Origin: a virus
Virus record (IMG/VR): IMGVR_UViG_3300033998_000441
Location: 1 to 50,907 of that record
DNA: 50,907 nucleotides
Direction: 5' to 3' (one strand)
In this document: positions 1 through 41,768 of the stretch, piece by piece
How the letters are laid out: each line of letters begins with the position of its first letter
Position numbering within the stretch: position 1 is the stretch's first letter
Notes under the pieces: generated by a model
Database searches by the model: none
Seen by the model: the letters and a program-made list of their open reading frames with translations, nothing else
What the model was told of the DNA's origin: nothing
Position numbers and translations under genes: made by a program

Positions 1-162
1 TTATCGCTCTAATTCTTCCGGTTCCGACATTCCCGGCATACTTGATTTGGCATAGTCTTTGTCCTGTGTGCCATAGGATGTCTGCAAACGGTCATAGTCA
101 ATGGTGGGAAGCACCTTTTGATTTAAGTGTTCCACATAAATACTGGTTTTATCGTGTTCCAT
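1..162 (-). CDS. 53-aa hypothetical protein of the conjugative-element operon
   Basis: This short open frame reads MEHDKTSIYVEHLNQKVL... and ends in -EELER just at the left window edge. It starts at an ATG with an AAGGAG ribosome binding site and lies 9 bp downstream of the DUF4314/DUF3846 gene, so it is translated as part of the same leftward operon. The protein is charged and acidic, with no membrane segment or recognisable motif. Its tail (-ELER, then stop) resembles the ends of two upstream genes in this operon (-EIER and -DFER). I do not recognise its family. The gene is supported by context and start signal only. Confidence 0.6.
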   Translation of the reverse strand: MEHDKTSIYVEHLNQKVLPTIDYDRLQTSYGTQDKDYAKSSMPGMSEPEELER

Positions 163-171
163 ACTCACTCC

Positions 172-867: not shown

Positions 868-876
868 AGTGCCTCC

Positions 877-6728: not shown

Positions 6729-6739
6729 GCTCATACCTC

Positions 6740-12700: not shown

Positions 12701-14599
12701 ATGACCACCGTTTTTCAGACTACCGCTGACACCACCAATCCCATACTCATTTTTCAGCACGGCAATGCGGTCTTTTCTGGCAGGCAGCGTGAGCATTGCG
12801 TTATAAATTCTTTGCTTACCGCCTTGAAATGAAATGTGACTGGACAGAATTTGATTGATGATGTCATCTTTGGAAATGATCGGTTCTTCATCTGGTTCAT
12901 AACTATCTTCATCCGTAGTGCCTTTCATTTCTTCCGCTTCATCAGGAATGGAGTAATCATCTAACATACTGTCTGCAGCACTAAAGGGATAGGCTCCCAT
13001 TAAAATAAGCTGGTCAATTTTTTCTGCCAGCTCCCGGTAGGTAAAGGCAAACTGCTGTCCCTCGGTTTCAAAAGTAATATCATTCTTGCCGGACAAAAGG
13101 TACAGATACTCACCGGTCTTAGTGGTGTAATCGGTATCCAGCTTGCCATAAAAGGCTTTCAGGGCATTGGCTTTGGTGCTTTGCTTATGACCACCGCCCC
13201 AAAAACGATATAGTTCTGACTGCCATTCCCGTGTATCTGGGGTAATATCGTCGGCACATAAGACCACATCCACTAGGTCAGATATTTCTTCCTCGTCCAA
13301 CCGAGAAACCAGTTCTGCAACGGGCGTTTCTAGTGCTGTTTTCGTCACGGTTTCGGCAGGTACTTCCTGTGTTTTCTTCGGCGGAACAACGAAAAAACCG
13401 CCCACAGACGGTTCTTTACCATCTGTGGGCGGTTCTGTATGTTGTGTGGGTTGTGTTATCTGACCTTGAGTGCCACTTCTTTCATAATCAGTTCCTCCGC
13501 TGTGAGGGTAATCATGTTCATGTGACTGGCTCTCTCCAGTGTGTCCTCGGTGTCTGGCATCGGCTGCACCGTGAGAAGCTCCTGTATCAGAGCTTCTTTG
13601 CGCTTTTCCGCTTCCTCGTCCACTTGAAGAATCATTTTGTTGATTTCGCCCTGTGCTATCAGCTCCGACAGGCGGTGGGGATGGTGTTCCATCATATAGG
13701 CTTTCCACGCTCTGCCGAATTTGCCTACCGGCATTTTGTCGATCTGCACTTCCTGCGAAATCTGTATTTCGGGATACATCATCCCGTCCTCGGCCTGACG
13801 ATAGCTGAGATTCATCAATGGCTCTGTTCTCATAGATTTGGCTCCTTTCAATTTTGATTGCTTTGATTTCCTGATTAATTTCCCTGAGAATGGGGCGTGC
13901 CAGCGAAACGGTACAGCTACCAATGGTCATAAATAACTCTAAGCTGTTAAAATGGCTGATATTCACAAAGGCGCCATCCTCAATAGGGGCAGTATCAATT
14001 CCGCATTTTCTGAACACAGTATAGGCTACGCTGTCCGTAACAAGCTCGGTAAGCTCCGCCTTGACCGCTTCGATAGGCATACCATAGAGCATACTGCTTT
14101 CATCATGAACCCGAAAATCCTCCAAATACTTTGGCATATGTTCCCGCACCATACGCTGTGCTAATTTATACAGACACTGTTCGATACTGGAAGTAGGCGT
14201 ATTGTATTTCTCATGGAGCTTTAGCAAAAGGCTTGGTTGATACTGTTCCTCTAGTTCCCACAGAAAACCCATGACAGTGCGGAAGCTCTGCGGTGTGCCG
14301 TTAGTGTCCATGAAATCAAACAGATACTTGATACTAGCATTGGGATTTGCCATATCAATTACGGCAATACCCTTTGCGCCCTTGTTGATACTGCGGTTAA
14401 TCCGTTTATCGTGCCATTCATCAAAAGTAGCAAGCTGTGTGGCATCGGGGCGCTGTGCATAAATCAGCACGGAATTGTCAAAGGAACGCTTATAGAACCG
14501 TGCAACACAGGATAACAGCCCCATCCACTCAGCAGGAGTTTTTGTATACTCCTGCACCGACTGCTTATAAAGGTCGGCAAGTAGGGTTGCTTTGCTCAA
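6740..14599 (-). CDS. Giant N6-adenine methylase-SNF2-type helicase protein of conjugative elements
   Basis: A 2619-aa cytosolic protein typical of Tn1549-like elements and large clostridial plasmids. The N-terminal 300 residues look like the ArdC-like region found at this position. A low-complexity Gly/Arg/Ser/His-rich linker follows, then LPD-like segments. A class I methylase fold carries motif I (ILDPAMGTGNFYSVLP) and a catalytic-loop motif VVGNVPFN, a variant of the NPPY motif. The C-terminal third is a superfamily 2 ATPase, with Walker A (AHEVGAGKTFSS), DEAH box (VVDEAHAYKNN), GTPVSNS and a C-terminal helicase motif (QRNGRILRQGNENKE). Proposed roles are protecting incoming DNA from restriction and remodelling DNA during transfer; the exact reaction is not established. 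It overlaps parB by 4 bp. A different frame inside the linker codes for a TnpV-like protein. Confidence 0.9.
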   Translation of the reverse strand: MSKATLLADLYKQSVQEYTKTPAEWMGLLSCVARFYKRSFDNSVLIYAQRPDATQLATFDEWHDKRINRSINKGAKGIAVIDMANPNASIKYLFDFMDTNGTPQSFRTVMGFLWELEEQYQPSLLLKLHEKYNTPTSSIEQCLYKLAQRMVREHMPKYLEDFRVHDESSMLYGMPIEAVKAELTELVTDSVAYTVFRKCGIDTAPIEDGAFVNISHFNSLELFMTIGSCTVSLARPILREINQEIKAIKIERSQIYENRAIDESQLSSGRGRDDVSRNTDFAGSADRQNAGRQIRQSVESLYDGTPSPPPVGADSTGRNQQNDSSSGRGSGKAQRSSDTGASHGAADARHRGHTGESQSHEHDYPHSGGTDYERSGTQGQITQPTQHTEPPTDGKEPSVGGFFVVPPKKTQEVPAETVTKTALETPVAELVSRLDEEEISDLVDVVLCADDITPDTREWQSELYRFWGGGHKQSTKANALKAFYGKLDTDYTTKTGEYLYLLSGKNDITFETEGQQFAFTYRELAEKIDQLILMGAYPFSAADSMLDDYSIPDEAEEMKGTTDEDSYEPDEEPIISKDDIINQILSSHISFQGGKQRIYNAMLTLPARKDRIAVLKNEYGIGGVSGSLKNGGHKRINYNGSGFDIEYKSDGVDFHEHLTWEKVEARILQLIQQESYLIAEEKVELEAAGQLVSLDAPSILTEPSAQLNLFEVFSQPQDTYEANDGEDNDALLNESSTEPEPLPFQEGDRISYHDKVFEILKFMHDGRTVEIGDISQLQNLTKFVIRERVPISEIADCKLLKDHYTDGEIVSMVVDAVQSSDNSEETKVEINAATLVNQANEDYNRAVMEDFHKRTMDGFHYRYSPDHHLYEGGQKTKCRNNIEAIRLLKDLQSQGRMATAAEQITLARFVGWGGLANALTQGKSGWETEHKEIKGLLTEEEFESAQQSTLTSYYTEQSVIRHIYHALERFGFHGGNILDPAMGTGNFYSVLPESMSGSKLYGAEIDTIPGNIAKHLYPYADIQVMGFEKTKFPDHFFDVVVGNVPFNSIRVDDPRYNRHNFRIHDYFLAKSLDQVRLGGIVAVITSKYTLDKSNPTIRKYLAQRAELLGAIRLPNNAFKQVAGTEATTDILFLQKREREIVPDKENSPWLSVEENAGGIPLNSYFVNHSEMVLGEMVFDESMFGNEKTTACRPIPGDVLDERLERAVSYLEGTYTEAISEYAEEKTVLRDSMPADPAVRNFSYTVVENALYYQENSRMYRQDITGKKAERIRGMIEITAAVRSLIDFQNSVYADGHDLPTAEYEKQLQEHIGYLNQVYDDFVKQYGYLNSYGNVIAFSRDSNAPLLRSIEQESKTEKGVYEKTPMFYKATIKPKVMPSVVFSAEEALKVSLNVKGRVDLSYMSWLYQLPEHRKATPDEIIAELGDRIYQDPAQYTGSPHTGWQTAGEYLSGYVKDKLTEAILKAEEEPERFARNVEALKSVQPTPLTPQEISFTLGSTWIPVDVYQQFMYDTFKTMAYNQTGRYAIGVEFSNYSGAYFIANKSAEKTSIAVNQTYGTDRMNAYEILENTLNLRSVEVKDRVDYVDPDTGEDKVKYVLNKRDTILAREKQAQIKLAFESWLFSDPERGARLTKLYNEKFNNVRPRKYDGTDLALPGMADDITLRQHQLDVIAHGLYGDGNLLIAHEVGAGKTFSSIALAYELKRLGKIHKPLIAVPNHLVGQWANEYMRLYPNANILVAEKKDFERKNRRRFVSRIATGDYDAVIMAHSSFELIGLSRERQLAAMQAELDAISDAIEEQKLRDGKDWSLKQMQIFRSNLQFRYDRLFKSEKKDDVIYFEELGVDALVVDEAHAYKNNFSYTKMRNVAGVSGASSQRAMDMHMKCQYINEIGNGKGVIYLTGTPVSNSMAELYVLQKTLQPKELERRGLLMFDSWASTFGKVESSLEIKPEGNGYQMKNRFARFHNLPELMSMFQMIADIKTADMLDLPVPELKTGAVQVIKTAITPEQKRIVMELGERAELIRNGEVDSTEDNFLKLTHEARLLSVDPRAVDPSIPDDSNTKLNICAGKVAEIYHETADEKLAQLIFCDQGTPKYDGSFNFYEATKTALIAKGVKSEKIAFIHDAKTDVQREQLFDKVRSGEIRVLMGSTEKMGTGMNVQQKLVALHHLDVPWRPSDLTQRNGRILRQGNENKEISIFNYITENTFDSYLWQILEQKQRYISQIMTGRSALRSCEDIDDTVLQYAEFKALATSDPRIKQKMETDNEISRLTVLKSSWQSQRNEMQYRISQYYPKEIAAATRKIEGMTADIAAYGQHAPADFQMVIDGRLHEERTKAAEHFMVFARKLGRDTGATLELGTYAGFPIRLVRQWGDGVSIQLCGKCTYSTDMGEAALGNITRLEHLAERMEKAKTEEENNLLSLNQQLTDAKEEMEKPFPDEERLLELQKKKVELDLALEFKDDGEDMMTADEEEGASDRPSVSTAMTLEQRLYQKLMLFAAPVLNSEAYYMKLQSEGFEDLAIEAIGGGEYSIAHYYDCNGDAMRDPEITFTVDKDNRSIDPTSYLQDDMGIFYATDTASPAKVKDLKQFMSQWFTNIKDQGFEPVKVNVYEQEDDSEEIER
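13456..13833 (-). CDS. tnpV: TnpV-like protein overprinted inside the giant helicase gene
   Basis: A 125-aa protein read from the same strand as the giant methylase-helicase gene but in another frame, lying over its low-complexity linker. The ATG at 13833 has a textbook ribosome binding site, AAAGGAG, 8 bases upstream. The sequence has the layout of the transposon protein TnpV: an N-terminal YRQ...DGMMYPE segment, a PVGKFGRAWKAYM segment, then LSELIAQGEINKMI, a central VDEEAEKR helix and a final HMNMITLTAEELIMKE stretch. The normal family motifs I recall are PIGxYGxxRxxYL, LLxSGKLNxxL, IDxxAxxRxE and MNxIRxxAxEIV. The role of TnpV is not well defined; the family was named from Tn4451. That the frame is real rather than a shadow rests on family resemblance and start signal. 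Confidence 0.65.
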   Translation of the reverse strand: MRTEPLMNLSYRQAEDGMMYPEIQISQEVQIDKMPVGKFGRAWKAYMMEHHPHRLSELIAQGEINKMILQVDEEAEKRKEALIQELLTVQPMPDTEDTLERASHMNMITLTAEELIMKEVALKVR

Positions 14600-15606
14600 T
14601 CTACCACCTCCGTATTCAGATTTTCAAAGTACATAGCAAGTGCCTTATCAATGGTATCCTCAATCTCTTTTTTGCTCTGCTCGTTGGTGAAATACTTGGA
14701 AATCACTGTAGGCTTGACCTTAAAGGACTGGGGCTTATTGCTCTTTGGTTTGCGGGTTTTCTCTCCGGAAAGGATTTGTACCATTGCGGTATCGGTCAGC
14801 TTTCCTGTTTCATAGTAGCTGCGGAGTAATTCCGCCTTTTTCATATCCACTTTGTAGTTGTCGGACTCCATGAGGTCAAAAATCTGCTGTTGCTGATTGA
14901 TGTCCTCTACAAAGGAGAGGTCATAGCCTGCAAGAAACGCAATTTCACCGGTATCAACCTTTTCCAGTAAGCCGAAAACCAGCCCTGCAAGACGAATATA
15001 TCGTGCAACCTTGGCATGAGAAAGACCATATTCTCCACCTAATTTTTCGTCTGTTCTCAACTTCGTCTCAACTTGTGACGAAGTTGAGTTTCCCTCGCAG
15101 CCATGAGGATTTAAGAAGATTTCTATCTCTGCTAAAAGGTCGTTTCTCTTACCCTGTGATTTGAGTGCTTCATAGTGTTGGGCAAGGCAATAGGCACGTT
15201 CCGAATGGCTCATATCAGAAAAGGAACGCTGCCGCAGATTGGTTTCTGTGACAATCAGCACGGCTTCATCATGAGTCAGATTTTCCTTAATGATAACAGG
15301 ACCTTTGGTAAGACCTGCTAGCTGACCGGCATTTCGGCGGTTATGACCGCTAAGTATCAGATACCGCCCATCCTCCGTATGCCAGAGGATAATGGGAAGC
15401 AGAATACCAAACTGGCGAACACTATCCACCATGTCGGCAAGCTGCTGTCCCTCATATAGCTTGAACCTGTGGTTCGGAAACGGCTCCATTAAAGAGAAGT
15501 CCATTTCCGTGATACCTCCCTGCACAGGAGCAGGGGCGGTGTCCTGTGCAGGCTCAAAATTGAGCATATCTGCAAAATCTTCAATAATAACTTTTGGCTT
15601 AGCCAA
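14596..15606 (-). CDS. parB: ParB/Spo0J-type partition protein
   Basis: A 336-aa DNA-binding partition protein that would load at parS-like sites and stimulate the neighbouring ParA. The N-terminal ParB/sulfiredoxin-fold domain is clear at residues about 35-125: a MEPFPNHRFKLYEG start, SVRQFGILLPIIL, the CTPase-type motif SGHNRRNAGQLAG, and ETNLRQRSFSDMSHSERA. A central helix-turn-helix follows (LGGEYGLSHAKVARYIRL), and the C-terminus is basic and helical. The start is probably the TTG at 15606, which overlaps the end of parA by 8 bp and has AAGGAG about 10 bases upstream. The downstream overlap is also 4 bp, so the block is translationally coupled. This is the maintenance function of the left-hand element. 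Confidence 0.9.
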   Translation of the reverse strand: MAKPKVIIEDFADMLNFEPAQDTAPAPVQGGITEMDFSLMEPFPNHRFKLYEGQQLADMVDSVRQFGILLPIILWHTEDGRYLILSGHNRRNAGQLAGLTKGPVIIKENLTHDEAVLIVTETNLRQRSFSDMSHSERAYCLAQHYEALKSQGKRNDLLAEIEIFLNPHGCEGNSTSSQVETKLRTDEKLGGEYGLSHAKVARYIRLAGLVFGLLEKVDTGEIAFLAGYDLSFVEDINQQQQIFDLMESDNYKVDMKKAELLRSYYETGKLTDTAMVQILSGEKTRKPKSNKPQSFKVKPTVISKYFTNEQSKKEIEDTIDKALAMYFENLNTEVVD

Positions 15607-16417
15607 CTCCGATCAGCTCCTTTCCGTCTGTTTCTTCACAGGAAAGAAGTTCATCTGCAAACTGACTGTAAGCAATCGCCGCCGGATTTTCTGGCAGGAA
15701 CTCACAGATGGTTTGATGATACAGCACTGCTTCTGCGACCTTGATAGAACGAGGGATACGAGTGTTGAAAATCGGCACTTTTCCGGCAAAGCCCTGTTGA
15801 ATCATTTTATTAACCTGTGCGGACAGAATGGTGTTAGGTGAATCCATGGTGATAAGGATACCATCAATACGCAGACGATGGTTGCTGTTTTTGCTGATAA
15901 CCTGATAATGTTTCAACAACTCAGCCAACCCCTGTGTAGACAAAAGCTCCGCTTGTGTTGGCACAATAATGCTGTCGGCACACATCATCACGTTAATCAT
16001 TGGCGTACCCATTTGGGGCATACAGTCAATGATGATGTACTTGTATCTGTCCTTGATGGTATCCACATACTGCGACAGCATACGCTCACGGAAATCCACG
16101 TTGCACAGATTTCGTTCCAGTGTAAAAAGCTGTGAATTTGAAGGGATAACATCCACACCGCAGTTGGTTTTTATAATATAACTATCGGGATCAGGCAAAG
16201 GCTCGTCCTCAATCAGCTTGCGAATAATGGTGTTGATGGTTACCTCTAGTTTGTTGGTGTTCTTCACACCAAAGATGATACTGGAATGCCCCTGACCGTC
16301 AAAGTCAATAAGAGCAGTTCGGTGTCCCCGCTGGGACAAGAGATAGGCAAGCGTGGTGGCCGTGGCCGTTTTTCCCACGCCGCCCTTCTCGTTCATGATT
16401 GCAATTACTTTTGCCAT
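15599..16417 (-). CDS. parA: ParA-family partition ATPase
   Basis: A 272-aa ATPase that powers segregation or intracellular positioning of the element together with ParB. It has the deviant Walker A motif MNEKGGVGKTATA near the N-terminus, the switch segment LIDFDGQGHSS, a Walker B-like YIIIDCMPQMGTPM, and the usual C-terminal ParA fold. The ATG at 16417 (MAKVIAIM) is chosen because AAGGAG lies 8 bases upstream; a TTG 6 bases earlier is too close to that site. It is the first gene of the leftward operon. Four GGGTA repeats and a long hairpin lie immediately upstream and may take part in its control. Confidence 0.93.
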   Translation of the reverse strand: MAKVIAIMNEKGGVGKTATATTLAYLLSQRGHRTALIDFDGQGHSSIIFGVKNTNKLEVTINTIIRKLIEDEPLPDPDSYIIKTNCGVDVIPSNSQLFTLERNLCNVDFRERMLSQYVDTIKDRYKYIIIDCMPQMGTPMINVMMCADSIIVPTQAELLSTQGLAELLKHYQVISKNSNHRLRIDGILITMDSPNTILSAQVNKMIQQGFAGKVPIFNTRIPRSIKVAEAVLYHQTICEFLPENPAAIAYSQFADELLSCEETDGKELIGVG

Positions 16418-16434
16418 CGGCAAACTCCTTTCTT

Positions 16435-16469
16435 GGGTAAAAAATAATTTGGGTAGGGTAAAAAGGGTA
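16435..16469 (-). repeat. Four GGGTA short repeats in front of parA
   Basis: GGGTA occurs at 16435, 16451, 16456 and 16465, giving TACCC when read in the direction of parA. The repeats lie in an A-rich stretch immediately upstream of the parA ribosome binding site. Clustered short direct repeats in front of parA are often ParA/ParB operators or a centromere, so an autoregulatory site is plausible. The repeats are very short, and chance in a low-complexity stretch cannot be excluded. Confidence 0.35.
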
Positions 16470-16471
16470 AT

Positions 16472-16531
16472 AAAAAAATAGACGTAATCGGTGAAAACCC
16501 TCTTGTTTACTGGGTTTCTCTGATTACTGTC
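16472..16531 (-). terminator. Long hairpin with U-tract between recombinase and parA
   Basis: GACGTAATC...AAAACCC at 16481-16500 pairs with GGGTTT...GATTACTGTC at 16511-16531, with a small internal loop. On the minus strand the hairpin is followed by TATTTTTTT, so it looks like a Rho-independent terminator for the recombinase operon. A TATAAT at the promoter-like position just upstream (minus strand, 16533-16538) means it could instead be an attenuating leader for parA. Confidence 0.6.
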
Positions 16532-16540
16532 TATTATAAC

Positions 16541-17296
16541 TCAGTCATTGGTAAGGATACTTTCCACAGTTTTTGCATGCCATTTTTTCTGGCCTCCAGG
16601 TGTCTGGGCTCCAATTTCCATAAGCCTTAGAGAAATTTTATAGTAAGACATTCCTTCAAGAAAACATTTATAAATATATCTTACAATCTTAGCTTGTTCT
16701 TCGTTTACTACAAATCCTCCATTGGGACCTCTGTCATAACCAAGGAACCTTTTATACGCTACACTAGCTTTTCCATCTGCAAAACGTTTCCGTTGACCCC
16801 ATGTGGTGTTCTCAGAAATGCTTCGACTTTCCTCTTGTGCCAAGGATGACATGATAGTAATAAGAAGTTCCCCTTTTGCATCAAGTGTCCATATATTTTC
16901 TTTCTCGAAATATATCTCTACACCCTTTTCTTTTAATTTTCTCACTGTCGTAAGACTATCTACCGTATTTCGTGCAAATCGGCTAACCGATTTCGTTATG
17001 ATAAGATCAATCTTTCCTTCTAAAGCATCTTCCACCATTTGTTTAAACCCTTCACGACGGGCAGTGCTTGTAGCTGAAATTCCTTCATCACTATACATTC
17101 CTACAAAGACCCAATCATCTCGGCTTTGGATGTAGTTCGAATAATAATCCATCTGAGCCTCATAACTGGTTTGTTGCTCTTCAAGTTCTGTTGATACTCT
17201 AGCATATCCCGCCACTCTTCGTTTCCTTGCGTTACCAATCGGCTGAGCAGTAACTCTGCTTATGGTAGCTGGAATCGTGGTTACTCTCTTTGCCAT
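16541..17296 (-). pseudogene. Large serine recombinase, truncated after the catalytic domain
   Basis: A 251-aa remnant of a large serine recombinase that would normally be about 500-550 aa. The catalytic resolvase domain is present: nucleophile Ser35 in GYARVSTELEE, DEGISATSTARR, and SVSRFARNTVDSL. The start of the recombinase DNA-binding domain is also there (AYKRFLGYDRGPNGGF...). The frame then stops right after KTVESILTND, where family members normally continue into a KYKGD-like stretch and the zinc ribbon. The DNA-binding half and coiled coil are missing, so it is unlikely to act alone. It overlaps the upstream recombinase by 16 bp. The break coincides with the edge of the parA element and with a change in base composition, which points to a recombination junction. 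Confidence 0.8.
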
Positions 17297-18873
17297 TCTA
17301 GTTTCCTCCCATCTTTAAGATCAAATATAGCTTTATCATCAAACAGGATAACCTCATCTACCTCTTGGATGAACCTCACTTCGTAATTTGCCTTATCTCT
17401 AAGTAATACTACCGTAGCCTTTCTCAATTCATCCTCATTTAATGACTTCAAATCACAATAAGCCATTTTATGTTTTCTCTGGCCGTCACAAGTCCACCTC
17501 TCGTAATATTCTCGGAAAGTCGTTTTACTGTGAGCAATAGGATTTCTAATACATTTGGATCCGCATTTGCCACATTTAATCTTTCCTGTAAAACATGTTC
17601 TACCCCTTGGCATACAGGAGTAATCCCTTGACCAGTTTTTTATCTTTCCATTCTTAAAGTGAAATTCTATCCTATAATCGTAAACTAAGATCCTATCAAT
17701 TTCCTTTTGAAATCGTTCTTCATCCAACTCCTTTTCTCCTAAAACATATGCTGAAGCTGTCCGTAGTAAATCCTCATCGACCGGATGTAAATCCTCATCG
17801 ACCGGATGTAAATCGCAGCATTTGATTCCCTTGGTTTCACGAGCATTGCATACCCATCTCTTATAAGAATTTTTTTCTGTTGTTTTACTATGGGTGATAT
17901 TCCTGCGGCTACATTTGTATCCGCATTTGCCACATTGGACTTTACCAGTAAAGCAAGTAATCTGCTTGTTTTTATTTGATGCGTTTTTGCCACGCTCCAC
18001 ACGAGCATTCTGCACTTCCTGGAACAACTCTTTACTAATAATCGGTTCATGTGCTTCTTCCACCCGATACTTTGGTAATTCTCCGTAATTCAAAGTTCTC
18101 TTTCGTATCTTGGGTGAATAACTTTTCTGTAACACTAGGTTTCCAATGTATATCTCATTTTGGAGTATGTCTTTAATGGATGCCCTTGTTAGTGAATTTC
18201 CATTTATTCCTACAACCCCTTTTTCATTAAGTAACTTAGGTAACTGAAGTGTTGAAATGCCAGTAAGGTATTGCTCAAAAATAAACCTAACTGCTTCAGC
18301 TTCATCGGGAACAATCCTGTATTTACTCCCATCCCATTCATAACCAAAAGCTCTGCTCGGTGAATGGAGTTCTCCTTTTTCAAAACCTTTTTTGATGGCC
18401 CATTTTATGTTTTCGGACATACTTCTGCTTTCTTCCTGTGCGAAGGATGCCAGAATGGTTAGCAATAGTTCTCCGTCCCCACTCATAGAGCTGATGTTTT
18501 CTCTTTCGAATCGCACTTCAACTCCAATATCTTTCAGATGTCGAACCGTCTCCAAGAGATCTACCGTGTTTCTAGCAAACCGGCTTATTGACTTTGTAAG
18601 TACAATATCAATCTTACCTGCATCGCAGTCTACAACAAGACGCTTGAAATCGTCACGTTTTTCTGTGTTGGTACCAGTAATTCCTTCATCAGCGTAAACA
18701 CCAACATAAGTCCATTCCGGATTTTTTTGTATTAAAGTGCTATAGTAACTAATCTGTGCTGAAAGGGAATGTAGAAGCACTTCTGAATCTTTGGATACAC
18801 GAGCATATGCTGCGACCTTTTTCTTTAGGTGCATTTTCGGTATAGCTGCTCCTATTTTGCTGATTTTTCGCAT
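17281..18873 (-). CDS. Large serine recombinase (integrase) with two zinc ribbons
   Basis: A 530-aa site-specific recombinase, probably the prophage integrase or one partner of a recombinase pair. The resolvase domain spans about residues 18-165, with nucleophile Ser27 in AAYARVSKDSE, DEGITGTNTEKRDD and KSISRFARNTVDLL. The recombinase domain follows (RAFGYEWDG, then SIKDILQNEIYIGN). The zinc ribbon is present twice: CGKCGYKCSRR with a later CNA...CCD, and CGKCGSKCIRN with a later CDG...YCD. A 21-bp tandem duplication between them gives DLHPVDEDLHPVDED. A GGAAAGGAG site precedes the ATG. Both the duplicated ribbon and the absence of a long coiled coil are unusual for phage integrases. It follows the SHOCT gene by 44 bp. 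Confidence 0.88.
   Translation of the reverse strand: MRKISKIGAAIPKMHLKKKVAAYARVSKDSEVLLHSLSAQISYYSTLIQKNPEWTYVGVYADEGITGTNTEKRDDFKRLVVDCDAGKIDIVLTKSISRFARNTVDLLETVRHLKDIGVEVRFERENISSMSGDGELLLTILASFAQEESRSMSENIKWAIKKGFEKGELHSPSRAFGYEWDGSKYRIVPDEAEAVRFIFEQYLTGISTLQLPKLLNEKGVVGINGNSLTRASIKDILQNEIYIGNLVLQKSYSPKIRKRTLNYGELPKYRVEEAHEPIISKELFQEVQNARVERGKNASNKNKQITCFTGKVQCGKCGYKCSRRNITHSKTTEKNSYKRWVCNARETKGIKCCDLHPVDEDLHPVDEDLLRTASAYVLGEKELDEERFQKEIDRILVYDYRIEFHFKNGKIKNWSRDYSCMPRGRTCFTGKIKCGKCGSKCIRNPIAHSKTTFREYYERWTCDGQRKHKMAYCDLKSLNEDELRKATVVLLRDKANYEVRFIQEVDEVILFDDKAIFDLKDGRKLEWQRE
17767..17808. repeat. 21-bp tandem duplication inside the recombinase gene
   Basis: The unit TAAATCCTCATCGACCGGATG occurs twice in direct succession (17767-17787 and 17788-17808) and starts again as TAAATCG. 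It preserves the reading frame and duplicates seven residues (LHPVDED). It looks like a recent replication-slippage event. Confidence 0.9.
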
Positions 18874-18917
18874 AGTATCGACTCCTTTCCAACACTATAT
18901 ATCACTCTATAAGCTTA

Positions 18918-19094
18918 CTAATTCAAGCTAATGTCGGTGAATAATGTGCCGAAAATCGGTTGGTATTTCTCCAGCATAATTGTATCAAATTCATGATAGT
19001 CCTCTTCGGATATCACACCTTTTTCTAGCATTGATCTAGCAATACTCATTGTGGTCTGATACAACAATTCATTTCTAAATTGGTCTTCACTCAT
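18918..19094 (-). CDS. SHOCT-like small protein of the recombinase module
   Basis: A 58-aa helical protein, MSEDQFRNELLYQ..., ending in a SHOCT-like motif (ARSMLEKGVISEEDYHEF). SHOCT segments are short oligomerisation helices found alone or at the ends of bacterial proteins. The ATG at 19094 overlaps the stop of the upstream zinc-ribbon gene and has GGAGGT 7 bases upstream, so the longer frame starting at 19205 is not used. Similar small proteins sit between a zinc-ribbon HTH protein and serine recombinases in many clostridial prophages, which suggests a helper role in integration or excision. That role is inference. Confidence 0.75.
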   Translation of the reverse strand: MSEDQFRNELLYQTTMSIARSMLEKGVISEEDYHEFDTIMLEKYQPIFGTLFTDISLN

Positions 19095-19518
19095 CCCGGC
19101 CACCTCCAAATCGGTCAGCCACATAGCATTCATGACAACAATACTTCCTACGGGAATTACCATAGACCATGAATTGCTTTTTACTGTGAGGACAGGTAAA
19201 TTCATACAAAGCTTTCCGCTTTACCATATCAAGATTGTTGTTCCACCACTCCATTCTGCACTTATCAGAGCAAAACTTCTTCTCTTTTCTACCTGGGTTT
19301 TGTTCTACAGAAACACCACAGCACTTGCAGTAATACACGCCATTAGCTACTCGCACTTGCATTTTTGCTATATCTACTTTTGCCTTATTCGTCAGATTGT
19401 TTCTTCTACAAAAAGACTTTACAGTATTCTCTGAAACACCAAGTGCTTGAGCAATTCTAATATATCCGTACCCTTCAGCACGTAGTTTTGCAATTTGTAG
19501 CTTCTGTTCCTTCGTCAT
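19087..19518 (-). CDS. HTH protein with two cysteine clusters, start of the recombinase operon
   Basis: A 143-aa putative DNA-binding protein. Residues 1-37 form a resolvase- or sigma-like helix-turn-helix (IAKLRAEGYGYIRIAQALGV, then SENTVKSFCRR). Two treble-clef-like cysteine clusters follow: YCKCCGVSVEQN with KFCSDKCRMEWW, and FTCPHSKKQF with KYCCHECYVADR. It opens the operon with the SHOCT and recombinase genes, so it may regulate them or take part in recombination directionality. The ATG has GGAGGT 9 bases upstream, and one copy of the bipartite CCGTYCAA-N12-TGTCCTTAGG element lies about 45 bp in front. Such proteins are frequent next to clostridial serine integrases; no activity is established that I know of. 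Confidence 0.8.
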   Translation of the reverse strand: MTKEQKLQIAKLRAEGYGYIRIAQALGVSENTVKSFCRRNNLTNKAKVDIAKMQVRVANGVYYCKCCGVSVEQNPGRKEKKFCSDKCRMEWWNNNLDMVKRKALYEFTCPHSKKQFMVYGNSRRKYCCHECYVADRFGGGRDE

Positions 19519-19550
19519 TGAAATTACACCTCCAATCGTTGAGGAATTAT

Positions 19551-19593
19551 CCCTCTAACTTCCTAAGGACAGAAATCATCAATTTGAACGGAT
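19551..19593 (-). promoter_or_regulatory. Bipartite element copy D, upstream of the HTH gene
   Basis: Read on the minus strand this is ATCCGTTCAA, 12 bases, TGTCCTTAGGAA, GTTAGAGGG. It matches three copies at 36.8 kb in both half-sites and in the 12-base spacing, and ends about 45 bp before the start codon. A small GAGG/CCTC hairpin follows it. This is a promoter or operator candidate; the binding factor is unknown. Confidence 0.65.
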
Positions 19594-34938: not shown

Positions 34939-35240
34939 CTATACACCCCACTCTCGGTCAAGGCGTAAAAGTAAGTTCACTGTGTTCCATACTTGTTGAC
35001 CCGCCTGTACACTATCAGCGAAGAAACCAGCCGTCGAACCATCCCTACTTTCATAGAAATGGCTCGACAGCATTATAACTGCTTGTTCTGTTGTAGGTGG
35101 CATGGTATTGGTTTCATAATAGCTTTCAGAGACGTGCTGATAACTCTGGGCATACGACAATGCTGCAGTGATTAAACTAATAAGGAGATCATCATCTTGG
35201 TCATGCGCTAGGATTAAGTTCGCCTTAACTTTAGGTAAGA
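34939..35240 (-). pseudogene. Head-tail connector (gp6-like), 5' end lost
   Basis: The frame reads ...KVKANLILAHDQDDDLLISL-ITAALSYAQSYQHV and ends DREWGV, the core of gp6-like connector proteins, which normally begin with a few residues before the KVK helix. No ATG, GTG or TTG is in frame before a stop at 35257-35259. Homology appears to begin at about 35235, inside the end of the primase frame. The first usable ATG (35160) would drop half of the helical domain. The 5' end was therefore lost by the deletion that joined this gene to the primase gene. Confidence 0.82.
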
Positions 35241-36329
35241 GATTTGTAGTGATTTTTCAAACTTCTTTCCACCAGCTCTCACATCATCCTTTGATACTCC
35301 ACTTGTTAGAAGAATATCTAAGGTTCTCTGCACTTCATCCAAAGCATCTGCAAGCTGTAAATCCAAGAATTCCTCCATTGCACCTACCGCTTGCTGTTTT
35401 GACTCCACCCAATACTCACCATTGAAACGAAGGTAGTCAGTCGCATCTGTGTAGCAAAGTTCATCTCCATATTCACGGGTTAGGACCTTTGCCTGACCGA
35501 TGTCTGAGAAGTCGGAAGGTTTCAACGATTCACAGTTAAAATCATTATTAAACTCTTCCGGGTCAACATATCCCTCCTGGTTCTGCACCTTTCTGGCAAA
35601 CTTTATAGCGCTATTCCATATCGTTGTAAGTTCCTCATCCTCCAACGGTGGATCACATTTCTTTGACTCATCAAGAAATATTTGATGTGCTTTATCCGTA
35701 GCGCCATAGCGTTTTACTACTCTTCCTGCAAAGCGGGATATGGTACTGTTTCTCTTTCCTTCTGGAATTGTAAATCTTGCTACTTCGGTACCTTCATCAT
35801 TTTGAAACACAGGTAATTCTTCATCAATGGTCAACCAACCTTCGTGCCATATCACCTCATCACAATTAGCACCATAGATGAAGCGTCCTGCATCCAAAGC
35901 ATTATTATCAAAGAATGGATAGGCTTTTTGCATCGCTATTTTAAATTCTGCATACTCATCTGCATCGTCACATGGATGGATAAGGAAGTACACATGAAAT
36001 CTTGGCCTTGCTGATTTATTAGCCTTCTGTTTCATATGATTACGACTTGGGGCAATCGCATAAGAAACATCCGGGAATAGTTCATCCAACTTTTCAAAAG
36101 TAATCCATTCATTGCTATTCTCAGAATGGTCATTGTCACAATCCATGACCAATACTACCGATTCAATAAAATTCTCTGCACTACGGTAGTTGTTCTTATA
36201 TTCCGCACAAACGTGATCGCTTCTGACAACCTCTTTTAGTTTCTCAGCACTCGTAACCTCAATGCGATTTGGGTAGTAACAGTTTTTTACATCGCTTACA
36301 CAGTTTGCTGTATAAAGTACTAGATTCAT
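35214..36329 (-). pseudogene. Phage primase-helicase, truncated: primase kept, helicase lost
   Basis: A 371-aa remnant of a phage D5/VirE-type replication protein. The N-terminal half looks like an archaeo-eukaryotic primase-polymerase domain (ESVVLVMDCDNDHS carries the acidic catalytic motif, then SRNHMK, RPRFHVYFLI, DAGRFIYGA). A PriCT-like helical segment follows (CDPPLEDEELTTIWNSA). The start of a D5_N domain is present (YLRFNGEYWVES). The frame then ends in KKFEKSLQI and a few more residues, before the SF3 helicase Walker motifs expected in full proteins of 750 or more residues. The final residues come from the connector gene read in another frame. The ATG overlaps the upstream gene by 4 bp. 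Confidence 0.82.
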
Positions 36330-36742
36330 CTGGTCACCTCCTTAAAGTCCTCCGTAAAATAACGAATTCTCATGCGTTTTCGTTTGGCTCTTAGAATTTC
36401 AGCTGCCATACCTTCCGATATCCTTCCTCCAAACACCCACAACTCTGCACATCTTCCCAGCAGTACCATGTTCATGAACATTGCCAATTCCCTCTCGGTG
36501 GCTTCATCCATAAATTGCGGAAACAACAGATGTGGGGCAATTGGTATTACTCCCATGTTTACTGCAAATCTGCTATACTCTCTGGCCTTCATTGTATTCC
36601 ATTTCTCATTTCCAGCGTAAGGAGAGCAGATATAAACAAGTGGTCTGTAATTACTCTTTCTTTCTTCACGCTCTATGCCATTGATCGCTTCAAAGGGTAC
36701 AGGGTCTTTGTAGCCTTCTGAGTTATATAAGCCAATTCCCAA
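36326..36742 (-). CDS. DUF4406-type nucleoside deoxyribosyltransferase-like protein
   Basis: A protein of 138 aa. It has the DUF4406 / nucleoside 2-deoxyribosyltransferase-like pattern: YICSPYAGNEKWNT near the N-terminus, then AREYSRFAVNMGVIPIAPHLLFPQF, and a RCAELWVFGGRISEGMAAEI stretch with the SEGM motif. It may act on nucleotides during phage replication; activity is not established. The TTG at 36742 is preferred because AGGAGGT lies 6 bases upstream; the earlier TTG at 36775 lies before that site. It is the first gene downstream of copy A of the bipartite element. Confidence 0.78.
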   Translation of the reverse strand: MGIGLYNSEGYKDPVPFEAINGIEREERKSNYRPLVYICSPYAGNEKWNTMKAREYSRFAVNMGVIPIAPHLLFPQFMDEATERELAMFMNMVLLGRCAELWVFGGRISEGMAAEILRAKRKRMRIRYFTEDFKEVTR

Positions 36743-36780
36743 GGTCTCACCTCCTTCAAAAATATTCGAGGACAAAATAT

Positions 36781-36822
36781 CCCCCTAACTTCCTAAGGAC
36801 AGAACCCTTGCTTTTGGACGGA
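36781..36822 (-). promoter_or_regulatory. Bipartite element copy A (leftward)
   Basis: On the minus strand: ATCCGTCCAA, 12 bases, TGTCCTTAGGAA, GTTAGGGGG. It is oriented towards the DUF4406-primase-tail transcription unit and ends about 40 bp before the TTG start. Copy A and copy B form an inverted pair around an A/T-rich centre, so the region acts as a symmetric divergent control site. Confidence 0.7.
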
Positions 36823-36845
36823 TAATTTAAAAACTTTTTTATTAA

Positions 36846-36888
36846 ATCCGTCCAATCTTACCTTATCTGTCCTTAGGAAGTTAGAGGG
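36846..36888 (+). promoter_or_regulatory. Bipartite element copy B (rightward)
   Basis: ATCCGTCCAA, 12 bases, TGTCCTTAGGAA, GTTAGAGGG, pointing towards the replication genes at 37.0 kb. It is the inverted partner of copy A and lies 81 bp in front of the directly repeated copy C. Confidence 0.7.
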
Positions 36889-36926
36889 ACCTGAGTCAGA
36901 AAAGATTTTCAAAAAGTTCTAAGAAA

Positions 36927-36969
36927 ATCCGTCCAAAGCTCAGACTTTTGTCCTTAGGAAATTGAGAGG
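36927..36969 (+). promoter_or_regulatory. Bipartite element copy C (rightward)
   Basis: ATCCGTCCAA, 12 bases, TGTCCTTAGGAA, ATTGAGAGG, ending about 30 bp before the ATG at 37000. A GAGG/CCTC mini-hairpin follows, as after copy D. With B this gives two tandem elements in front of the replication operon. Confidence 0.7.
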
Positions 36970-36999
36970 TAATAAACCCTCGGAAAGGCGGTGCTAATT

Positions 37000-37164
37000 A
37001 TGCAGTCTGAATCAACTGCAGGTGCAGATAGCAAGCAGGACATCGGTTTAGATGAAGAACTTGCTGATGTACTAATCGCAATTAGTGTTATTTCAAAGCG
37101 ACTTGCAAGGAAATTAACCGAGCAAGAACAATCAAATAAGGAAGGAGAAAACAAGCATGAGTAA
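37000..37164 (+). CDS. 54-aa phage hypothetical protein
   Basis: A short frame MQSESTAGADSKQDIGLDEELADV... ending in GENKHE, overlapping the next gene by 8 bp. The core (ELADVLIAISVISKRLARKLTE) is a single amphipathic helix that recurs at this position in clostridial phages. An AGGCGGTG site precedes the ATG. It is the first gene of the rightward replication operon controlled by elements B and C. The function is unknown. Confidence 0.7.
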   Translation: MQSESTAGADSKQDIGLDEELADVLIAISVISKRLARKLTEQEQSNKEGENKHE

Positions 37165-37507
37165 GATGAGCGAATTATCCGCGGAACTTGATGAGTTAAG
37201 AAGATGTGGTGAAATCTTAATTGGAATTTCAGATACTCTAAGAGAACTTTTTTCTACGTATGTAGAAGAAAAAGCTACATGTAAGCCTAAGAATCAGAAG
37301 GCTACGACAAAAGTACCACCAGAACCTGCAATGAAATCAATCTCTCTTACCGATGTCCGAGCAATCCTAGCGGAGAAGTCCCGCAATGGATACACAGCAG
37401 ATGTCAAAGCTCTACTTTTAAAATATGGAGCTGATAAACTGTCCGACATTGATCCGGCTGACTATGAAGCTTTACTCGCAGATGCGGAGGTGTTTGGAAA
37501 TGCCTAA
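37157..37507 (+). CDS. Small phage protein, helical N-terminus (rrp5-annotated family)
   Basis: A 116-aa protein with an N-terminal coiled helix (MSKMSELSAELDELRRCGE), a Lys/Pro-rich linker, and a C-terminal helical domain (TDVRAILAEKSRNGYTADVKALLLK-type repeat, ending ADKLSDIDPADYEALLADAE). Proteins of this design before DUF2800 in clostridial phages are often labelled rRNA biogenesis protein rrp5, a name with no support in function. The GAAGGAG site upstream and the 8-bp overlaps on both sides show tight coupling. It may assist the recombination or nuclease proteins that follow. Confidence 0.72.
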   Translation: MSKMSELSAELDELRRCGEILIGISDTLRELFSTYVEEKATCKPKNQKATTKVPPEPAMKSISLTDVRAILAEKSRNGYTADVKALLLKYGADKLSDIDPADYEALLADAEVFGNA

Positions 37508-38615
37508 ACATGCATTACTCTCCGCTTCATCTAGTAACCGATGGCTTCAATGTCCACCTTCAGCAAAGCTATGCGCTGAAGAGGATAATCAATATAGCCC
37601 TTATGCACAAGAGGGTACCGATGCACATAGCCTCTGTCAGTTTAAATTAGAACAGGCCCTTGGCATAAACACAAAAGACCCTATGGAGAATTTGGATTAC
37701 TACAATGGGGAGATGGAAAACTGTGCTGAAGAATATGCTTCATTCGTCATACAGCAATTGGCAGAAGCAAAGCGCTATTGTTCTGATCCTGTAATCTTAA
37801 TCGAACAGCATCTCGACTTCTCTAAATATGTAGAGAATGGATTTGGAACAGGTGACTGTGTAATCGTTGCTGATGGTATTCTTCAAGTCATCGATTACAA
37901 ACATGGGCTTGGAATACTGGTTTCGGCAGAAGAGAACCCACAGATGATGTGTTATGCTCTTGGAGCTATAGAACTCTTCGATGGTATTTACGATATCGAT
38001 ACCGTTAAGATGACCATCTTCCAACCACGAAGGGACAATATCAGCACCTATACCTTGTCAAAGGAAGAACTTATAACCTGGGGTAATGAGGTACTCTCTC
38101 CTATCGCAAAACTGGCTTATGCGGGTGAAGGTGAATTTAAAGCTGGTGACCACTGTCAGTTCTGTAAGATTAAGGCTACCTGTCGTAAACGAGCTGAATA
38201 TAACCTTGAACTAGCAAAGTATGACTTTGAGATGCCTCCTAATTTAGATGCCACAGAAATCAGTGTTATTCTCACTAAGGTAGATAACCTTGTCACCTGG
38301 GTCAATGACATAAAGGAATATGCATTACAACAAGCACTTCGTGGCACAAAGTATGATGGCTTTAAAGTTGTTGAGGGACGTTCCACCAGAAAATACACCG
38401 ATGAACAGGCAGTTGCAGATGCAGTCACATCAGCAGGTTTTGATCCATATGAAAATAAGCTCTTAGGTATTACTGCCATGACTTCCATACTTGGTAAAAA
38501 GAGATTCGAAGAAGTTCTAGGAAGCCTTGTAATGAAGGCGCCAGGTAAACCAACTCTCGTTCCGGAGAATGATAAGCGTCCGGAATTTAATACAGCACAA
38601 ATTGATTTTAAATAA
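37500..38615 (+). CDS. DUF2800 phage nuclease (PD-(D/E)XK, Cas4/RecB-like)
   Basis: A 371-aa protein with the features of a RecB/Cas4-like nuclease. It starts LSASSSNRWLQCPPSAKL, with motif GTDAHSLCQFKLE, a FGTGDCVIVADGILQVIDYKHG segment holding the D...D-x-K active-site residues, and a C-terminal cysteine cluster (DHCQFCKIKATCRKRA) for an iron-sulfur cluster. A first Cys near residue 18 could complete it. The family lies next to DUF2815 and polymerase genes in phages and probably acts as a recombination exonuclease. The ATG at 37500 overlaps the previous gene by 8 bp; a longer frame starting at 37425 is not used. Confidence 0.87.
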   Translation: MPKHALLSASSSNRWLQCPPSAKLCAEEDNQYSPYAQEGTDAHSLCQFKLEQALGINTKDPMENLDYYNGEMENCAEEYASFVIQQLAEAKRYCSDPVILIEQHLDFSKYVENGFGTGDCVIVADGILQVIDYKHGLGILVSAEENPQMMCYALGAIELFDGIYDIDTVKMTIFQPRRDNISTYTLSKEELITWGNEVLSPIAKLAYAGEGEFKAGDHCQFCKIKATCRKRAEYNLELAKYDFEMPPNLDATEISVILTKVDNLVTWVNDIKEYALQQALRGTKYDGFKVVEGRSTRKYTDEQAVADAVTSAGFDPYENKLLGITAMTSILGKKRFEEVLGSLVMKAPGKPTLVPENDKRPEFNTAQIDFK

Positions 38616-38628
38616 GGAGGACAATAAT

Positions 38629-39192
38629 ATGTCAAACGTAGCAAATCCAACGAAAGTGATTACCGGTCCACAAACAAGATGGTCATATGCAAATGTATGG
38701 GATGCAAAGTCAATCAATGGAGGTACACCGAAGTATAGCGTTAGCCTTATAATTCCAAAGTCTGATACCAAGACAGTTGCGCTAATAAAGACAGCCATTG
38801 AAGCAGCGTATAAGGAAGGTGAGTCAAAGTTAAAGGGTAATGGTAAAACAGTCCCTGCTCTTTCCGTTCTTAAAACTCCTCTTCGTGATGGCGATGTAGA
38901 AAGACCAGATGACCCAACGTATGCAAATGCATATTTCATCAATGCCAATAGTGCTACTGCACCGGGTATTGTTGATGCAAATTGCAATCCAATCCTTGAC
39001 CGTTCTGAAGTTTATTCAGGAGTATATGGCAGAGCCTCCATCAACTTATACGCCTTCAATTCAAATGGAAATCGCGGAATTGCATGCGGCCTAAATAACC
39101 TTCAGAAGATTTCAGACGGGGAACCTTTGGGTGGTAAGTCTCGTGCAGAGGATGATTTTTCTACAGATGACGATGATGATTTTCTTTCATAG
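38629..39192 (+). CDS. DUF2815 phage single-stranded DNA-binding-like protein
   Basis: A 187-aa protein (MSNVANPTKVITGPQTRWSY...) of family DUF2815, thought to be an OB-fold single-stranded DNA-binding protein. The support visible here is the conserved N-terminal block (TRWSYANVWDAKSINGG, YSVSLIIPKSD), a central strand set, and a strongly acidic tail (EDDFSTDDDDDFLS) like the partner-binding tails of SSB and gp2.5. An AAGGAGG site stands 8 bases before the ATG at 38629. It follows the nuclease gene by 13 bp, as nuclease and SSB genes often pair. Confidence 0.85.
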   Translation: MSNVANPTKVITGPQTRWSYANVWDAKSINGGTPKYSVSLIIPKSDTKTVALIKTAIEAAYKEGESKLKGNGKTVPALSVLKTPLRDGDVERPDDPTYANAYFINANSATAPGIVDANCNPILDRSEVYSGVYGRASINLYAFNSNGNRGIACGLNNLQKISDGEPLGGKSRAEDDFSTDDDDDFLS

Positions 39193-39216
39193 ATGTATAC
39201 CGTTAATCTCTGACTG

Positions 39217-39243
39217 GGGCGGTGGCAATGCTGCCGCCCTTTT
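39217..39243 (+). terminator. Hairpin between DUF2815 and the HNH gene
   Basis: GGGCGG (39217-39222) pairs with CCGCCC (39234-39239), followed by TTTT. It is a compact GC-rich stem, probably a partial terminator that lowers expression of the HNH and polymerase genes relative to DUF2815. Confidence 0.6.
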
Positions 39244-39261
39244 ACATTAAGGATGGTGAAT

Positions 39262-39789
39262 ATGATAGAAGAAATATGGAAAGACATACCTGGGTTTGAA
39301 GGAAAATATCAGGCAAGCACAATGGGACGTATTAAAAGTCTAGATCGGTTAGTTAGGGGTAAATGTCATTTCACAGGACATGATTTTTACAGAATGATTC
39401 ACGGCAGAATCTTAAAGCCAGGACGATTCTGTAAAAGTGGTCATGTTTCTGTAGTATTAGGACGTGGTGGCATTGGGAAACCAGTACATCAATTAATTGC
39501 ATTGACCTTCTTAGGTCCTTGTCCTAACGGTTGTGAAGTTCTCCACGAAAATGGTATTCCTACCGATAATCGTGTCTGCAATCTCCGATATGGTACACGT
39601 ACAGAAAATATTCTTGATGTATATAAAGATGGGGGGCGATGGAGAAAATTATCGACTGACGATGTTGAAAATATTCGTTTTGGCTTATCCTGTGGAATTA
39701 CAGGAGTTGAGCTTGCTAGTATGTATGGTGTTTCTTCATCAACAATATCTCGCATCAAATTAGGGAGGAGTTTTGGATGGCTGAAATAA
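39262..39789 (+). CDS. HNH homing endonuclease-like protein (NUMOD4-HNH-HTH)
   Basis: A 175-aa free-standing nuclease. NUMOD4 is at the start (EEIWKDIPGFEGKYQASTMG, then IKSLDR). The HNH_3 region follows (VHQLIALTFLG, CEVLHENGIPTDNRVCNLRYGT), with the His and Asn residues of the fold. A C-terminal helix-turn-helix (VELASMYGVSSSTISRIKLG) completes it. It is inserted between DUF2815 and the DNA polymerase, a favoured site for homing genes, and overlaps the polymerase start by 13 bp. The ATG at 39262 is chosen over 39253 on ribosome-binding spacing, with modest certainty. Confidence 0.87.
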   Translation: MIEEIWKDIPGFEGKYQASTMGRIKSLDRLVRGKCHFTGHDFYRMIHGRILKPGRFCKSGHVSVVLGRGGIGKPVHQLIALTFLGPCPNGCEVLHENGIPTDNRVCNLRYGTRTENILDVYKDGGRWRKLSTDDVENIRFGLSCGITGVELASMYGVSSSTISRIKLGRSFGWLK

Positions 39790-41768
39790 AATATATGAGT
39801 TGCGATATCGAAACATATTCTGATGTGGATCTAAAGAAATGCGGTATGTACAAATATGCAGAGTCACCCAACTTTGAAATACTTCTCTTTGCTTACTCCA
39901 TCAATGGTGGTGAGGTTGTCGTTATCGATCTAGCTAATGATGAGAAAGTTCCTACAGAGGTAATCATTGCTCTATCAGACAAAGAAGTTATAAAGTGGGC
40001 ATATAATGCTGCTTTTGAACGTATCTGTTTGTCCGAGTGGCTTAGAAGAAATTACCCTAAATATTTCAGTAGCTACAGCACCAGTGATGACACGGTCGGT
40101 AATTACTTAGATCCATCCTCGTGGAGATGCTCTATGGTTTGGTCGGCATATCTTGGATTTCCATTATCCCTTGAAGGTGTGGGAGCAGTGCTTGGATTGA
40201 AAGAACAGAAAATGAAAGAAGGAAAAGACCTCATCCGCTATTTTTGTGTTCCATGTAAGCCTACAAAATCAAACGGTGGTCGGACTAGAAATCTTCCTAT
40301 ACATGACAAAAATAAATGGAATACATTCATCTCCTACAACCGCAAGGATGTTGAAGTAGAAATGTCTATTCAAAAGAAGTTAGCCAATTTTCCTGTTCCA
40401 GAGTTTGTTTGGAAAGAATATCATTTAGACCAAAAGATAAATGATAGAGGAATTACTATTGATATGGACATCGTTGAACAGGCGATTATGATGGATGAGC
40501 GTTCCAAAGAAGAACTATCAGCAGAAATGAAGAAACTAACTAATCTGGATAATCCAAATTCTGTAGTACAGATGAAACAGTGGTTATCTGATAATGGTCT
40601 GGAAACCGACACTCTTGGGAAAAAAGCTATAGCTGAAATGCTTAAAGATGCTTCCGATGAACTAGCTGATGTTCTTACTCTTCGCCAACAACTTGCCAAA
40701 TCAAGTATAAAGAAATATCAAGCCATGAAAAATGCCGTATGTGTTGATAACCGGGCAAGAGGAATGTTTCAGTTTTATGGTGCCAATCGTAGTGGTCGGT
40801 GGGCAGGGTGTATCATTCAATTACAAAACCTTCCTCAAAACCATATGCCTGATTTGGAGCAAGCTCGTAGCCTTGTAAAGGGTGGTAACTATGATGCATT
40901 AGAAATGCTATATAATTCAGTGCCAGAAGTATTATCAGAACTTATTCGTACTGCTTTTGTTCCAAGAGAAGGATATAAGTTTATTGTAGTCGATTTTAGT
41001 GCAATAGAAGCTAGGGTACTCTCACATCTAGCAAAGGAGACATGGAGAAATAAAGTTTTTGCTAATAATGAAGATATTTATTGTGCAAGTGCTTCTGCCA
41101 TGTTTGGTGTTCCTGTTGAGAAACATGGTCAAAACAGTCACCTTCGCCAAAAGGGTAAAATAGCTGAACTAGCGTTAGGATATGGTGGTTCGTGTGGTGC
41201 TCTTAAATCAATGGGAGCCTTAGATATGGGTATTTTAGAAGAAGAACTACAACCTCTCGTTGATGCCTGGAGAGCTTCAAACCCTAATATCGTTCAGCTT
41301 TGGTGGGATGTTGATACCGCTGTTAAAAAGGCTATTACTCAAAGAACAGCTACTGAATGCCATGGAATCTGTTTTATTTATCAAAGTGGTATGCTCTTTA
41401 TCAAACTTCCCTCTGGTAGAAAGCTTGCTTATGTAAAACCTAAGATTGGCACAAACCGATTCGGAGGAGAAGCCGTGACCTACGAAGGCATCGGAGCAAC
41501 AAAAAAATGGGAGCGAATCGAATCATACGGTGCCAAATTTGTGGAGAATATCGTTCAAGCAATCTCCAGAGATATCCTTAGCTATGCGATGCAGACTCTC
41601 TCACATTTCCTCATTTGTGGCCACATTCATGATGAATTAATTATCGAATGTCCCATGGATGAATCTTTGAATTTTATTTGTGAACAGATGGGAAGAACTC
41701 CTCCATGGATAAAAGGTCTATTATTACGAGCAGATGGCTTTGAGACTTCGTTTTATAGGAAAGATTGA
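39777..41768 (+). CDS. Phage family A DNA polymerase
   Basis: A 663-aa DNA polymerase I-like enzyme for phage replication. The N-terminal 3'-5' exonuclease carries motif Exo I (CDIETYSD, residues 9-16) and a later YNRKDVEVE exo III-like motif. The polymerase domain has motif A (IVVDFSAIEARVLS), motif B (RQKGKIAELALGYGG) and motif C (CGHIHDELIIEC). All key residues are present and the length is normal for this phage type, so the protein looks complete. GGGAGGAG precedes the ATG, which overlaps the HNH gene. With the helicase missing from the primase gene, replication of the prophage is still probably impaired. Confidence 0.93.
   Translation: MAEIKYMSCDIETYSDVDLKKCGMYKYAESPNFEILLFAYSINGGEVVVIDLANDEKVPTEVIIALSDKEVIKWAYNAAFERICLSEWLRRNYPKYFSSYSTSDDTVGNYLDPSSWRCSMVWSAYLGFPLSLEGVGAVLGLKEQKMKEGKDLIRYFCVPCKPTKSNGGRTRNLPIHDKNKWNTFISYNRKDVEVEMSIQKKLANFPVPEFVWKEYHLDQKINDRGITIDMDIVEQAIMMDERSKEELSAEMKKLTNLDNPNSVVQMKQWLSDNGLETDTLGKKAIAEMLKDASDELADVLTLRQQLAKSSIKKYQAMKNAVCVDNRARGMFQFYGANRSGRWAGCIIQLQNLPQNHMPDLEQARSLVKGGNYDALEMLYNSVPEVLSELIRTAFVPREGYKFIVVDFSAIEARVLSHLAKETWRNKVFANNEDIYCASASAMFGVPVEKHGQNSHLRQKGKIAELALGYGGSCGALKSMGALDMGILEEELQPLVDAWRASNPNIVQLWWDVDTAVKKAITQRTATECHGICFIYQSGMLFIKLPSGRKLAYVKPKIGTNRFGGEAVTYEGIGATKKWERIESYGAKFVENIVQAISRDILSYAMQTLSHFLICGHIHDELIIECPMDESLNFICEQMGRTPPWIKGLLLRADGFETSFYRKD

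Follow-up and report, generated by a model that had tools for sequence, protein, structure and literature searches.

Four copies of a bipartite element in a temperate phage form a likely promoter set read by a sigma-region-4-like phage protein

The stretch of viral DNA analysed here (50,907 nt, termed the window at its whole length) contains four copies of a bipartite element, and comparison of sequences among related phages makes it likely, with a probability of roughly 0.8, that this element is a dedicated phage promoter read by a sigma-like protein encoded on the minus strand of the same phage (41818..42435). An earlier note on this DNA had proposed a dedicated promoter or operator read either by this sigma region 4-like protein or by a zinc-ribbon HTH protein; only the first of these candidate readers is retained here, as a putative binder, on the strength of its co-occurrence with the element and of the covariation between its recognition helix and the left half of the element.

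A search of the window with the pattern CCGTYCAA-N12-TGTCCTTAGGAA returned four exact matches, each with both half-sites and a spacer of exactly 12 bases, as first described, and 100 dinucleotide shuffles yielded no match even when up to three mismatches were allowed. Scored with a weight matrix built from 43 unique sites of class I, the element type of the window, these copies reach 35.7-48.0 bits and the fifth-best site in the window -5.4, a gap of about 40 bits; the number of elements in the window is four, with no others. They are copy A (CCGTCCAAAAGCAAGGGTTCTGTCCTTAGGAA; 36790..36821, minus strand), copy B (CCGTCCAATCTTACCTTATCTGTCCTTAGGAA; 36848..36879, plus strand), copy C (CCGTCCAAAGCTCAGACTTTTGTCCTTAGGAA; 36929..36960, plus strand) and copy D (CCGTTCAAATTGATGATTTCTGTCCTTAGGAA; 19560..19591, minus strand), so that the earlier note was right about the copies and off by 2-9 bases about their starts, which it had placed at 36781, 36846, 36927 and 19551. 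Coordinates and strands bear out its description of A and B as an inverted pair serving divergent operons and of B and C as tandem copies, 81 bp apart. All four stand at operon starts. From the end of the element to the start codon there are 47 nt for A (TTG at 36742), 39 nt for C (ATG at 37000) and 41 nt for D (ATG at 19518). The DNA upstream of the element is AT-rich, and an intrinsic terminator (19642-19611) directly precedes copy D. Two boxes at fixed spacing, in a single orientation and upstream of genes, have the architecture of a sigma-70-type promoter.

Copy A heads a minus-strand operon whose first gene encodes a DUF7768 protein resembling nucleoside 2-deoxyribosyltransferases (36326..36742; Pfam and PHROG profiles) and whose second encodes the N-terminal part of a primase/helicase (35214..36329), matching positions 1-363 of 756 in phrog_1883. 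On the plus strand, copies B and C precede the replication/recombination operon: the first gene after C specifies a small conserved protein (37000..37164; phrog_3280) that is kept in relatives, and the genes that follow (37157..41768; PHROG and Pfam matches) specify a phrog_408 protein, a DUF2800 exonuclease, a Gp2.5-like ssDNA-binding/annealing protein, an HNH protein (read from the sequence) and a family A DNA polymerase. Copy D heads the serine-integrase operon (16541..19518, minus strand), which contains genes for an HTH/zinc-ribbon protein, a small protein and two serine recombinases, with matches to phrog_2308 and phrog_95 in the operon and the second recombinase read from the sequence. 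In the region 34939-36329, the primase part is 371 aa long against a profile of 756 positions, and no genes for terminase, portal or capsid were seen separating it from the tail-type genes; we read this as either a misassembly or a defective prophage in which a deletion has occurred. Positions 1-16500, with ParA/ParB-like genes and a 2619-aa ORF (a reading of the sequence), are not phage-like and resemble an integrative conjugative element, which suggests that the virus record extends beyond the end of the prophage.

The exact pattern recurs in 13 viral stretches and in seven stretches of bacterial contigs, including those of Anaerocolumna, Mobilitalea and an uncultured Clostridia bacterium; in one of the viral stretches (L001) the match is single, its surroundings are not conserved, and it is probably due to chance. 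When up to three mismatches are allowed, there are three or four copies in most related prophages, and host chromosomes outside prophages show weak three-mismatch matches only. A regulon of the host itself was considered and rejected: in Anaerocolumna sedimenticola, all matches with at most two mismatches fall in two prophage regions. The fixed-spacing motif precedes the same types of operon in about 14 related prophages, which have in common one element before the primase operon, a tandem pair before the replication operon and one element before the integrase operon. The place of copy A is kept in relatives with the divergent layout, where it heads a DUF7768 gene or one that we read from its sequence as antirepressor-like, and copy D heads two different integrase modules, one of the HTH/zinc-ribbon type and one with a small gene of 72-80 aa. 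The genes found downstream in relatives thus indicate that the element set is a regulon, in support of the earlier claim that recombinase, replication and primase operons belong to one. Copies B and C lie 72-83 bp apart in phages of class I; in other classes the distance is mostly 78-83 bp. Between these two copies in G001 and G012, the B leader encodes a possible short peptide (MSQKR...), whose frame crosses element C and whose conservation does not extend to all phages.

More distant loci were collected in the neighbourhood of genes for related sigma-like proteins and DNA polymerases. In these relatives, which include Streptococcus phage phi-SsUD.1, elements occur in the same places and with the 12-bp spacer, but with different letters: left and right halves are paired as CCGCTGAA/TGTCCTTTCAGA, TCGTTCAA/TGTCCTGGGACT, CCGCCCAA/TGTCCATTGGAT, CCGGTCAA/TGTCCTTACATA, CCGTTCAA/TGTCCATAGGAA, CTGATAA/TGTCCTTTGAGG and TTACTCAA or GTACTCAA/TGTCCTGTGRA, and the left half TCGGAAAA occurs with right halves such as ATACCTAGAC, some consensuses outside class I having been assigned by eye and many of the records being fragments. 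An automatic triple finder gave chance-level scores at some loci, owing to region limits, and those loci were read individually. When the spacer was left open to 11-13 bases, it was 12 at every operon-start site, and the few spacers of 13 all lay elsewhere. Four elements are present in each of the class IV phages G015-G017, the fourth before the integrase module, and the same number occurs in phi-SsUD.1: three copies of RCGGAAAA-N12-NNTACTTAGTAAG lie in the divergent region, and a fourth, which has one mismatch, precedes genes for site-specific recombinases. One integrase leader module is shared between a phage with a class I element (G011b) and one with a class IV element (L251): the downstream DNA is identical at 73 of 78 positions and the spacer at 11 of 12, whereas the element differs at five of the seven positions that follow TGTCC and at one position in the left half, each time toward the class of the phage concerned. 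In four further records (L211, L202, L203 and L219) the sigma-like gene is located just ahead of B and C, and B itself falls within a strong inverted repeat, GCCCTCTG...CAGAGGGC.

Two of the distant relatives, phi-SsUD.1 and the Terrisporobacter phage TPDSL_ph1, are phages of Ca. Heliusvirales whose replication operon is homologous to that of the window (DNA polymerase 64-74% identical) and whose element letters differ from those of the window. The phi-SsUD.1 counterpart of the sigma-like protein is ORF14, annotated as hypothetical, and the early operon of TPDSL_ph1 holds an annotated RNA polymerase sigma factor. In TPDSL_ph1 (L239) and NatCom_43819 (L240), where the gene order is another, the sigma-like protein encoded early in the operon is a different one, and these phages have their own repeated element, GGTWAAAA...GCCTGTRACTT. 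Annotations of the related phage records examined mention no promoter of this kind.

The proposed reader is a protein of about 205 aa with a C-terminal four-helix HTH and a central Cys cluster. A tblastn search located its gene in all relatives whose early region is complete, and the encoded proteins are 80-89% identical to that of the window, or 30-34% in G006 and G008. Members of the family have weak sigma matches among PHROG and NCBIfam profiles; against TIGR02937 the best relative scores 32.1 bits, short of the curated cut-off of 42.9, and the protein of the window has no match. Nor did Pfam, PHROGs or NCBIfam detect sigma region 2 in it, an absence of homology with which the function may nonetheless remain. 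In an AlphaFold model, the N-terminal half is of low confidence (mean pLDDT 66.8) and the C-terminal four-helix domain reaches about 88-93. This domain superposes on the -35-binding domains of SigD (3vfz, TMt 0.82) and SigR (5fgm, TMt 0.79), the Foldseek E-values of the whole model being weak (0.2 or worse); as modelled, and together with the covariation of its helix, it has the features of a region 4 HTH of the -35-binding type. A scan with the class I weight matrix assigned no element to the sigma-like gene itself, which is probably expressed from another promoter, its product then switching on the four units.

If this protein reads the element, the letters of the one should change with the residues of the other, and this is the pattern observed among the 22 phages for which a sigma-like protein was available and an element had been assigned (the translated references L114 and L128, which were out of frame, were dropped). 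Distances between left halves correlate with distances between contact residues of the recognition helix (r=0.65, P=2e-4), permutation P values here and below treating phages as exchangeable and relatedness being controlled by partial correlations only: the correlation is 0.62 when the rest of the protein is controlled for and 0.63 with the DNA polymerase, which served as the control for relatedness, and the rest of the sigma-like protein, given the helix, adds nothing on the left half (0.00, P=0.47). When the protein was scanned blindly over its whole length in seven-column windows, the peak fell in the recognition helix, at GKSTVTD (r=0.72, max-statistic P=3e-4). The right half correlates best with the windows KAKDRDK and AKDRDKR of the middle helix (residues about 70-77; r=0.54-0.58), a correlation that weakens to 0.26-0.45 after control. 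Individual pairings follow the same pattern: proteins with KST..D(K/R) keep CCGTCCAA even at 30-35% overall identity, L117 and L234 have in common both QTT.HGR and CCGTTCAA, and QKT.NNR pairs with TTACTCAA and QKA.NKR with GTACTCAA.

The spacing of the boxes, the AT-rich upstream DNA, the constant orientation and the covariation with the helix together fit a promoter in two parts, with a left box that the sigma-4-like domain would read. Positions 1-8, the left half, would act like a -35 box, contacted by the C-terminal recognition helix, and positions 21-32, the right half, would correspond to a -10 box, their centre-to-centre spacing being close to that of a sigma-70-type promoter; example boxes would be CCGTCC-N17-CCTTAG, with TGT at the extended -10 position. 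The sigma-like protein would direct the host RNA polymerase to the four sites, such that, once it is made, the integrase, replication/recombination and primase operons would come on together. We further infer the actual transcription start, direct binding, an early or middle timing, and reading of the right half by the middle helix of the protein.

A variant with the same element and the same reader but another mode of action is less likely: the sigma-like protein might be an activator bound to the left half, with the host sigma-A RNA polymerase taking the right half as a degenerate -10. RinA, ArpU and T4 MotA are described as activators, region 4 alone is recognisable in the protein, and the half-sites evolve partly independently (left versus right, r=0.13-0.29). 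The right half, however, is unlike TATAAT and changes with phage class, which host sigma-A would not impose, and it also tracks the phage protein, if weakly; because of this right half, class-dependent and unlike TATAAT, we favour a sigma-like role.

The prospect that the element is instead an operator, through which a phage repressor silences early promoters in the prophage, appears slim. Sites at early operons recall CI-type operators, and an XRE gene (44904) and an ImmA-like gene (42956) lie nearby, but the XRE gene is not universal, being missing from several phages with sites, including G002 and G003. Moreover, the element is asymmetric, keeps one orientation relative to the gene, and follows in its letters the helix of the sigma-like protein. 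Nor was a separate sigma-A promoter found around copies A-C for a repressor to block: as had been noted, standard sigma-A boxes are lacking, with none found in 36600-37200 (TTGACA-N16-18-TATAAT) and one weak 9/12 match, at shuffle expectation, upstream of D. The dyad TCCTTAGGA that had been pointed out in the second half does occur in the window, but a functional role is not borne out, as relatives show TTAGAGA or TTAAGAA at that place. A dimer model, in which the left half is complementary to the right, was likewise rejected, complementarity across classes not being significant (permutation P=0.15).

Slightly less credible still is a role of the conserved sequence as RNA, i.e., as a leader hairpin or antitermination signal. 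Many leaders have a small GAGGG/CCCTC-type hairpin right after the element, in the window in the leaders after A (36743-36789), C (36961-36999) and D (19519-19559), ahead of the ribosome-binding site, but the mean folding z over relatives is only -1.2, and it is with a DNA-binding helix that the element covaries most strongly. As a reader, the zinc-ribbon HTH protein (19087), although it has an HTH and is encoded by the first gene behind copy D, is highly improbable, having no close homologue in the site-bearing G002, G003 and G011b, where copy D heads another small gene.

Sigma factors that phages encode and that serve promoters of their own, such as SPO1 gp28 and gp33-34 and T4 gp55-gp33, are comparable in that a phage protein, as we propose here, redirects the host RNA polymerase to phage promoters without sigma-A boxes. 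In contrast to these, the protein described here has a recognisable region 4 only, plus a Cys-rich middle, the system resides in temperate prophages, where it would control the integrase genes along with those for replication, and the element letters vary between related phages. ECF (group 4) sigmas likewise use a region-4-like domain for a -35-like box, and their -35-binding domains are among the Foldseek matches, but no region 2 was found here, relatives stay below the TIGR02937 cut-off, and the element differs from the usual ECF promoter, GGAAC/CGTC. RinA, ArpU and Xpf are small phage proteins with a sigma-4-like HTH that control phage transcription, described for late genes, whereas the proposed targets here are the integrase, replication and primase operons; profile searches of Pfam, PHROGs and NCBIfam gave no match to these families. 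We found no description of this element in the literature searched: TGTCCTTAGGA appears only in 13 papers with unrelated titles, and the words promoter and sigma are absent from the phi1207.3 paper.

These widespread temperate phages, for whose gene control we found no earlier description, thus gain a concrete putative promoter set, a named candidate reader and a readable specificity code. About ten element types are naturally paired with different recognition helices, which makes the code directly testable, and the element/protein pairs could serve as orthogonal transcription switches. The system is also relevant to the question of how RNA polymerase can be directed by a minimal sigma-like protein that lacks an obvious region 2. 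To judge from the sequences, each virus lineage seems to use a private code for starting transcription. We give about even odds to the wider proposition that temperate phages of Firmicutes include a large family in which small proteins resembling sigma region 4, with no recognisable region 2, are self-sufficient promoter-specificity factors, each lineage having its own orthogonal dialect of about four promoters per genome that have changed together with the recognition helix.
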